Source of the DNA: Erinaceus europaeus | Taxonomy: Eukaryota; Chordata; Mammalia; Eulipotyphla; Erinaceidae | Length of the DNA: 64,000 bases | Direction of reading: 5' to 3' | NCBI RefSeq assembly: GCF_950295315.1 | Contig: NC_080170.1 | Span: 98,269,971 to 98,333,970 of the forward strand | Shown: positions 52,685 through 55,170 of the stretch, piece after piece | How the letters are laid out: each line of letters begins with the position of its first letter | How positions within the stretch are numbered: position 1 is the stretch's first letter | Made by a program: the position numbers and the translations under genes | The notes under the pieces: model-generated | Seen by the model: only the letters and a program-made list of their open reading frames with translations | What the model was told of the DNA's origin: nothing | Database searches by the model: none

Positions 52685-55170
52685 GGTGACAGAGGAACCC
52701 TTCTGCACAGCTGCTGGGAATGTAAATTCCAACCTCTGCGGAGAGCAGTCTGGAGAATTCTCACAAGGCTAGACATGGACCTTCCATATGGCCCGGTAAT
52801 TCCTCTCCTAGGGATATACCCCAAGTACTCCATAACACCCAACCAAAAAGATATGTGTACATCTATGTTCATAGCAGCACAATTCATTGTAGCTAAAACC
52901 TGGAAGCAACCCAGGTGCCCAACAACAGATGAGTGGCTGAGAAAGCTGTGGTATATATACACAATGGAATACTATGCAGCTATTAAGAACAATGAACCCA
53001 CCTTCTCTGACCCATCTTGGATGGAGGTAGAAGGAATTATGTTAAGTGAGCTAAGTCAGAAAGATAAAGGTGAGTATGGGATGATCCCATTCATAAACAG
53101 AAGTTGAGAAGGAATAACAGAAAGGGAAACTCAAAGCAGGATTTGACTTAATCTGGAGTAGGGCACCAAAGTAAAAACCTTGGGTTGAGGGTTAGGCTTG
53201 ATGTTCAGCTTCATGGGGAGAGCCAGGGGGTGGGGGGAGAGGGGATGGGATGGGACACAGTCTTTTGGTGGTGGGAATGGTGTTTGTGTACACTTCTATC
53301 AATTTATAGTCATATAAATCACTAATTAATATGAGAGAGGAAAAATTGATTGAATGTCTCAAACTTTATAAATCACAGACTGAGTATTTTGATATGTTGA
53401 CTCTCTTAGAAGCTTAGACCAGGGAGAACAGAAGCAACTGGTGGCACAGCTATATAAAAATAATGTCAAAGGACATAAATTATGGTGATGGTGTGTATGA
53501 TACAGCAAATCCTAACAAAGGAATATTTCAAAGTTAACCCAATTGCCAAATAATGTGATTATAGCAATAACTATCTATTGCCTTCTTAAACTGTAAGATA
53601 GCAGGAACCTTTGCTTCATCTACAGAGCCTATATTTATCCCAGTCCTGGAACCTTAGGGTAGGCTGCACTTTCCTGCATGCTTCTCTCAATTCATACCAA
53701 ATGATACTGCATCCACCGACCCCAACCTAATCAATGCAATGAGTACCACCTCAGCATGCTTCACTTCAGGCTGTGTCCAGAGACATCAGATGTTTCAAGT
53801 GGCCTCCCCCAGGACTCTGTTCTGGCTCCTACGCTATTTAATATTTACATCAATGACCTTCCAGAAACTTCTTCAAGAAAGTTCATCTACGCCAATGACA
53901 TCTGCTGTGCAACTCAGGCATCCAAGTTAGACATCCTCGAGGAAACACTTACGAAAGACATGTCTCTGATATCTGATTACTGTAAAAAATGGCGACTAAT
54001 CCCTAGCACTGCAAAAACGGTATCATCTGTTTTCCATCTACACCATGCCTCCGCCTTGCGTGAGCTTAATGTGCAGCTTGACGATACGAGAATCCGGCAT
54101 GAAGCCCAGCCAGTCTATCTTGGCGTTACTCTCAATCGCACCCTGTCATTTCACGAACATCTCATAAAAACTGCAGCAAAGGTGGGCGCAAGGAACAACA
54201 TCATTGCAAGACTGGCCAGCTCCTCATGGGGTGCGAGCTCTTCCACACTACGATCATCATCTCTGGCATTATGCTATTCCACTGCAGAATACTGTGCCCC
54301 AGTATGGTTCCGTAGCCCCCATGTCCACTTGGTCGATTCCAAATTATATTCCTCCATGAGGATAATTTCTGGAACCATCCGTTCCACCCTGGTTCCATGT
54401 CTGCCAGTTCTTAGCAACATCGCCCCGCCAGATATTCGTCGGGATGCGGCATCATCTAAGTTCATTTCCCACATCTACGCTCGACCGGACCTGCCAATAT
54501 ACACGGATATCTTCGCCCACCCTGTCCAACGCTTGACGTCTCATCACCCAATCTGGTCCCCTATGCCTACACTGAACTTCTCTGTTCCAGACTCTTGGAA
54601 ACAGAGTTGGCAGTCAGCTGAGGTAAAGAACAAACACCTCATCACAGACCCCTGCAAGCATCAACCCTGCTTTGACCTAGCACGTTATGATTGGGCCCAC
54701 TTCAATCGCTATCAAACAGGCCATGGCCGGTGCACCGCTATGTTCCATCGCTGGGGAGCCAGAGACGACCCGAACTGCCCCTGCGGCTCCAGACAGACTA
54801 TGACCCACATAGTCAACGACTGCCACCTGTCCAGATTCAAAGGAGGTCTCGAAACTTTACATCAGGCTCAACCTGATGCTGTTGACTGGCTACGGAAGAA
54901 GGGCAAATGCTAGAAGAAGAAGGTGGAATAACAACCCTTCAGCCAAATTACTTGGGTGAGACCTTTCCTTTCATAGTATTTTGGATGTGAGGGCGATATG
55001 GCTGCCACATCTTGGGTCTATACTCCCAGAAGGTTACACAATAGGAAAGCTATCAGGGGAGGGGATGGGATACGGAATTCTGGTGGTGGGAACTCTATGG
55101 AATTGTACGCCTCTTATCCTATGGTTTTGTCAGTGCTTCCTTTTCATAAATAAATAATAATTTTTAAAAG
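52685..55170 (+). mobile_element. Younger L1, 5'-truncated, hosting a non-L1 LINE fragment
   Basis: The last part of ORF2 is open from about 52685 to the stop at 53105-53107 (CWECKFQPLRRAVWRIL, DLPYGPVIPLLGIYPK, MFIAAQFIVAKTWKQPRCP). The upstream codons of that frame are flanking DNA. A G-rich tract (53226-53257) opens the 3' UTR, which is about 0.9 kb after removing the insert at 53784-54922, and the copy ends in a ttttcataaataaataat stretch. The duplications at 52632-52684 and 55171-55223 are 53 bp each with 7 mismatches. Confidence 0.92.
53784..54922 (+). pseudogene. Non-L1 LINE reverse transcriptase fragment (CR1/L2/Jockey-like)
   Basis: A 1.14-kb 5'-truncated retrotransposon lies inside an L1 3' UTR. 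A frame with no internal stop runs from an ATG in flanking L1 (53756) to TAG at 54911-54913, 385 codons. Numbering from that ATG: residues 15-36 are the RT segment SGLPQ(D)SVLAPTLF with NIYINDLP; 43-48 are the catalytic motif, read as FIYAND where active enzymes have YADD (Asn47 is AAT at 53894-53896). YLGVTLNRTLSFHEHL is the thumb-side block, and CPCGSRQTMTHIVNDC a Cys/His-rich terminal motif. N-terminal RT blocks and the endonuclease are absent. After the stop it ends in GAAGAAG, then resumes L1 3' UTR (gtggaataacaaccc). It has the QGS-type motif and terminal zinc-like block of CR1/L2/Jockey relatives, not the GxPLSPxLFNIV type of L1 and RTE. The clade is not settled by eye. The lost Asp makes this copy inactive. 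Confidence 0.85.

Follow-up and report, generated by a model that had tools for sequence, protein, structure and literature searches.

Vingi elements are reported, in the 2011 account of Kojima, Kapitonov and Jurka (Mol Biol Evol 28:17-20), to carry an APE endonuclease upstream of an RT that is the sister of the Ingi RT, to have hedgehog or reptile hosts and, unlike Ingi, to be without RNase H.

The Vingi clade of LINEs was described in 2011 from hedgehogs (PMC3183009, PMC5753468). In one of these reports, the hedgehog Vingi transposable elements are named among "likely horizontal transfers in mammals", and Vingi-1N3_EE is credited with 311 copies of less than 1% divergence in the hedgehog (PMC3183009). 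The human genome, too, is reported to contain old Vingi traces, listed as X12_LINE (PMC5753468), and a Vingi-2 is tabulated for Anolis (PMC3747384). Two other non-L1 LINEs of mammals, RTE1_Sar of the common shrew (PMC6542046) and BovB, are likewise explained by horizontal transfer. RTE1_Sar belongs to the RTE clade, a probable difference from the element described here, and is reported to have no significant hits in hedgehog reads (PMC6542046). The I-Jockey class of the African hedgehog is also a small non-L1 LINE group, with 4476 copies and 2.232 Mb, and the same 2025 repeat paper describes a set of unclassified LINEs termed possibly species-specific; the word Vingi does not occur in its main text (PMC12026660). 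We would guess that some of these I-Jockey or unclassified copies may be Vingi.

Here we analyse a stretch of hedgehog DNA of 64,000 nucleotides (the window), in which a 5'-truncated non-LTR retrotransposon, copy A, is nested in the 3' UTR of an L1. We are largely confident that copy A is a truncated element that is likely a Vingi, that it likely arrived by target-primed reverse transcription, and that it is, by prediction, inactive. The Vingi name is likely on structure, distribution and the published record; no difference from Vingi-1_EE is apparent in the described features, on which the likeness is judged.

Insertion of the element into an L1

Copy A is flanked on both sides by sequence matching L1, and three other L1s in the window continue across the same point without an insert (Table 1). 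These empty paralogous sites indicate that the LINE entered an L1 that was already in place, in agreement with the initial annotation, which had put the element inside an L1 3' UTR and its insertion after that of the L1. The 5' edge of copy A is uncertain by a few bases, the left L1 match running to 53788-53793 and the right one starting at 54923. At most 2-3 bases are duplicated at the target, so this particular mark of the insertion mechanism is weak for copy A.

A direct repeat of 58 bases (52627-52684 and 55166-55223, 50/58 identical) borders the host L1 and may be an unusually long target-site duplication of that L1. If it is, its divergence of 14% would make the host L1 older than the LINE within it.

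The window also holds a second insertion, copy B, which the initial annotation did not mention. It is 321 bases long, ends at its 3' side on the same base as copy A, and is 95.1% identical to copy A over a gap-free match of 326 bases (32575-32900). The two copies occupy different points of the L1 3' UTR and have different 5' ends. Copy B is bordered by a target duplication of 9-10 bases, one G of which is shared with its tail. Two copies with a common 3' end and unequal 5' ends, together with the duplication around copy B, are marks of target-primed reverse transcription, and the features of copy B fit that process.

That copies A and B are both found in L1 3' UTRs is what would be expected if an L1 lineage had captured the fragment and then spread it within its own 3' UTR. 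However, the insertion points and lengths of the two copies differ, copy B has a target duplication of its own, and L1s with neither insert are present in the window; capture by L1 was rejected on the different insertion points, and we give it almost no chance.

We propose instead that both copies descend from a source element, about 3 kb long when complete, which, judging from its relatives, would have encoded an APE endonuclease followed by an RT in one ORF, with no RNase H. Its machinery would have nicked the target DNA, and cDNA synthesis would have been primed on the element's own 3' end, just past the stop codon. The resulting copies would have been 5'-truncated, with the RT's C-terminal half retained in copy A and 321 bases in copy B, and both would then have decayed, likely neutrally.

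Table 1. Positions in the window of copies A and B, their host L1 sequences and the matching empty sites
Feature	Position	Strand	Remark
Copy B left target-site duplication, GGGAAAGAGA	32569..32578	+	present singly in the empty L1 at 27107-27361 (-)
Copy B, independent insertion, more 5'-truncated, in another L1 3' UTR	32579..32899	+	
Copy B right target-site duplication	32899..32908	+	one G in common with the tail
5'-truncated host L1 of copy A: 3' end of ORF2 and left part of 3' UTR	52685..53789	+	
Copy A, 5'-truncated non-LTR retrotransposon	53790..54922	+	L1-matching flanks; P0002 aligned from 53792
Parts of copy A: RT C-terminal half, C-terminal Cys/His motif, stop, short tail	53790..54922	+	
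Open frame of the element itself, 373 codons and TAG	53792..54913	+	
PQDS, Asp codon	53813..53815	+	Gly in 46/46 relatives
YAND, Asn codon replacing the first Asp of YADD	53894..53896	+	Asp in 49/50 relatives
Short AAG-repeat tail, immediately after the stop	54914..54922	+	3' end common to copies A and B
Host L1 of copy A, right part of 3' UTR	54923..55165	+	internal deletion relative to the L1 of copy B
Empty site matching the copy A insertion point	32156..32160	+	in the L1 that bears copy B further on
Empty site matching the copy A insertion point	27527..27528	-	in another L1
Empty site matching the copy A insertion point	62746..62751	-	in another L1

Open frame and domain content

An ORF of 402 codons spans copy A on the + strand, from 53705 to a TAG at 54911-54913. 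The leading ~29 codons come from L1 3' UTR, open there by accident, which leaves about 373 of the 402 codons for the element; an in-frame ATG is found at 53756, within the L1-derived part. By tblastn the same leading peptide can also be read, partly with stops, at the L1 3' UTRs at 27615, 32076 and 62831, with a weaker match at 42984. When the copy A frame and its relatives (121 proteins) were compared with the window by tblastn at E 1e-3, the L1 ORF2 sequences of the window were unmatched. The matches were copies A and B and four other places with one match each, and these four coincide with the L1 3' UTR sites that match the first ~30 residues of the query P0001.

The frame matches the Pfam profile RVT_1 with an E value of 7.1e-6 and 26.3 bits, which is below the cut-off of 29.6, over profile positions 111-204 of 205, corresponding to the C-terminal half of the RT. 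An open non-L1 RT C-terminus of about 375 codons, free of stops and frameshifts, had been read from the letters, and this description is borne out by the element's own codons and by the profile match. The frame ends right after the C-terminal motif, and a search for RNase H in it gave no match at E up to 1. Copy A has no endonuclease and only half of an RT. The first Asp of YADD is catalytic in RTs, and both of the key-position changes pointed out in that earlier reading, PQDS and YAND, are present, at residues that are almost invariant among relatives (Table 1). With neither an endonuclease nor a complete RT, and with Asn in place of the catalytic Asp, copy A is predicted from its sequence to be inactive.

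Relatives and family assignment

A protein search with P0001 gave one near match among the best 120 of 271 proteins, P0002 (582 aa, on an ENA contig of 2072 bases), whose identity is 94% in an alignment covering 93% of the query; the remaining 119 listed relatives are 38-64% identical. The RT of P0002 matches RVT_1 at 1.7e-32, and P0002 as a query brings in full-length relatives of about 1000 aa (best 120 of 1794 listed). An APE-type endonuclease and an RT were found in 6/6 of the full-length relatives scanned, and RNase H had no match at E up to 1 either in 6 relatives or in 6 full-length relatives. The kept relatives of at least 900 aa have 0-10 residues past the point at which the alignment with the window frame ends (54/54), and 15/175 kept relatives extend 20-157 residues past that point. 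P0002 itself possibly comes from hedgehog host DNA in some sample.

Among the 120 listed of the 271 proteins in the P0001 search, the named relatives were a turtle, an eel (2 records), a pseudoscorpion (2), a beetle and a fungus gnat, with identities of 40-59%; the search with P0002 adds a sand fly, a planthopper and another pseudoscorpion record at 47-49% identity (120 listed of 1794). A donor was not found among the named relatives of the listed protein matches, which at 40-59% identity are too distant to serve as one. One scan each of a viral contig collection and a genome contig collection gave no relative: tblastn confirmed none of the 2 and 22 pattern matches, respectively.

For a tree, 205 proteins were offered, 175 were kept because they spanned 300 or more residues of the query or were named, and 160 remained after removal of near-duplicates. 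This tree of relatives was made by a quick method, with a midpoint root. The window copy and P0002 pair with a support of 100 on a stem of 0.48 changes per column. The pair lies next to five further proteins, the seven together having a support of 85, and the seven sit within a clade of 79 rows (support 99) that includes the eel and the turtle. The pseudoscorpion, beetle, sand fly, planthopper and fungus gnat rows fall outside this clade.

The combination of features resembles that described for Vingi: an RT without RNase H in a compact, single APE-RT ORF, as seen in the relatives of the window element. Like Vingi-1_EE of the European hedgehog, the window element is a young non-L1 LINE in a mammal, and its named relatives include turtle and eel. 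The earlier label of "CR1/L2/Jockey-like" was right in setting the element apart from L1, whereas its choice of clade was loose, the structure fitting Vingi.

The window element could belong to a LINE family apart from Vingi-1, whether a different lineage of Vingi or a different APE clade, with an entry of its own into the host mammal. The single near match at 94%, with the other 119 listed proteins (of 271) at 38-64%, leaves room for this, Vingi being judged by description. However, an APE endonuclease and RT in a compact arrangement with no RNase H, as the relatives have, already fits Vingi, and young Vingi copies in the hedgehog are already in print (PMC3183009). A second family is therefore unnecessary, and we regard it as improbable. 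Still less probable, in our estimate, is a second, unlisted LINE lineage other than Vingi-1 that made a recent independent jump into this mammal from a fish, reptile or invertebrate.

Age and decay of the copies

Copies A and B differ at 16/326 positions, 9 of which are transitions. The divergence (K2P 0.051) corresponds to about 11.6 My per copy at 2.2e-9 per site per year, a rate that has also been used for the African hedgehog (PMC12026660). Counted by codon, the differences comprise 12 non-synonymous and 4 synonymous changes, and polarisation by P0002 places six of the non-synonymous changes on the side of copy A and six on that of copy B.

Residue conservation was judged from those of the 57 proteins P0003-P0059 that reach 330 aa, 52 in all. 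Copy A and P0002 differ at 24 positions, and at 13 of them the window residue occurs in 0 of 46-52 relatives; at 9 of those 13, the residue of P0002 is present in at least 45 relatives. At two others of the 24 the relatives mostly share the window residue, so it is P0002 that likely changed. Among the losses of copy A are PQGS to PQDS and YADD to YAND.

Neutral decay was simulated starting from the window copy itself, with indels set by assumption at 0.06-0.14 per substitution. At 2.5% decay, 39% of frames were free of stops, and 1.5-10% stayed open once frameshifts were added. At 12% decay only 1.4% escaped stops alone, so that a much older age of copy A is unlikely.

The initial annotation held that an ancient relic would not have stayed open so long without selection, which can be read as a hint of selection on the frame. 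Such a frame might be a domesticated RT fragment, and the absence of any stop or frameshift from 373 codons would speak for one, given the chance of 39% for stops and 1.5-10% with frameshifts, as would the in-frame ATG at 53756, although that codon lies in the L1-derived part. Against domestication stand the 12:4 ratio of non-synonymous to synonymous differences between the copies, the loss of residues kept in nearly all relatives, the catalytic aspartate among them, and the N-terminus of the frame, which is read by accident from L1. Openness by chance is also not rare at about 2.5% decay, and the suggestion of selection does not survive these results; we see next to no likelihood of it. The frame of copy A is likely open through youth, of roughly 10 My. 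It is somewhat lucky, with no selection needed, and open copies are likelier to catch a reader's eye.

Origin and significance

Late activity or horizontal acquisition had been offered as explanations for the element. Its youth is upheld by the divergence of the copies, and transfer is a reading already proposed for hedgehog Vingi (PMC3183009). Presence in a mammal would not by itself show a late gain, because old remnants of Vingi have also been described in the human genome (PMC5753468). Late gain is favoured over vertical descent by how young the copies are and by the published interpretation.

The same human traces show that relics of this kind can persist in mammals (PMC5753468), and copy A might accordingly be an ancient relic of L2, CR1 or an old Vingi such as X12_LINE. 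However, the K2P distance between copies A and B is only 5.1%, which puts each at about 11.6 My and refutes a relic unless gene conversion has acted, and the host L1 has paralogues in the window that are 73-92% identical to it, varying by block. We consider an ancient relic highly improbable.

Copy A is thus likely a truncated, predicted-dead copy of an already known kind of element, and to regard it as a late and probably foreign LINE comes near to the account already published for hedgehogs (PMC3183009). As a single copy it is of little importance. The family itself illustrates well the likely arrival of a LINE in a single mammal lineage from an outside source (PMC3183009), and the nest adds a small point to it, in that the empty paralogous sites and the second copy place the insertion after that of the L1.

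Other features of the window

An L1 ORF1 on the - strand (7175-8094) is represented by two overlapping ORFs with a frameshift between them, and its top identity is 63% among the best 120 of 4295 relatives. Those of the 120 that carry a species name are all mammals other than hedgehogs, in keeping with a mammalian host genome. An open frame of 234 codons at 30692-31396 (-) runs antisense to the end of an L1 ORF2 and is probably due to chance. Several long overlapping open frames occupy both strands at 859-1746, which is perhaps a processed pseudogene or a G+C-rich region.
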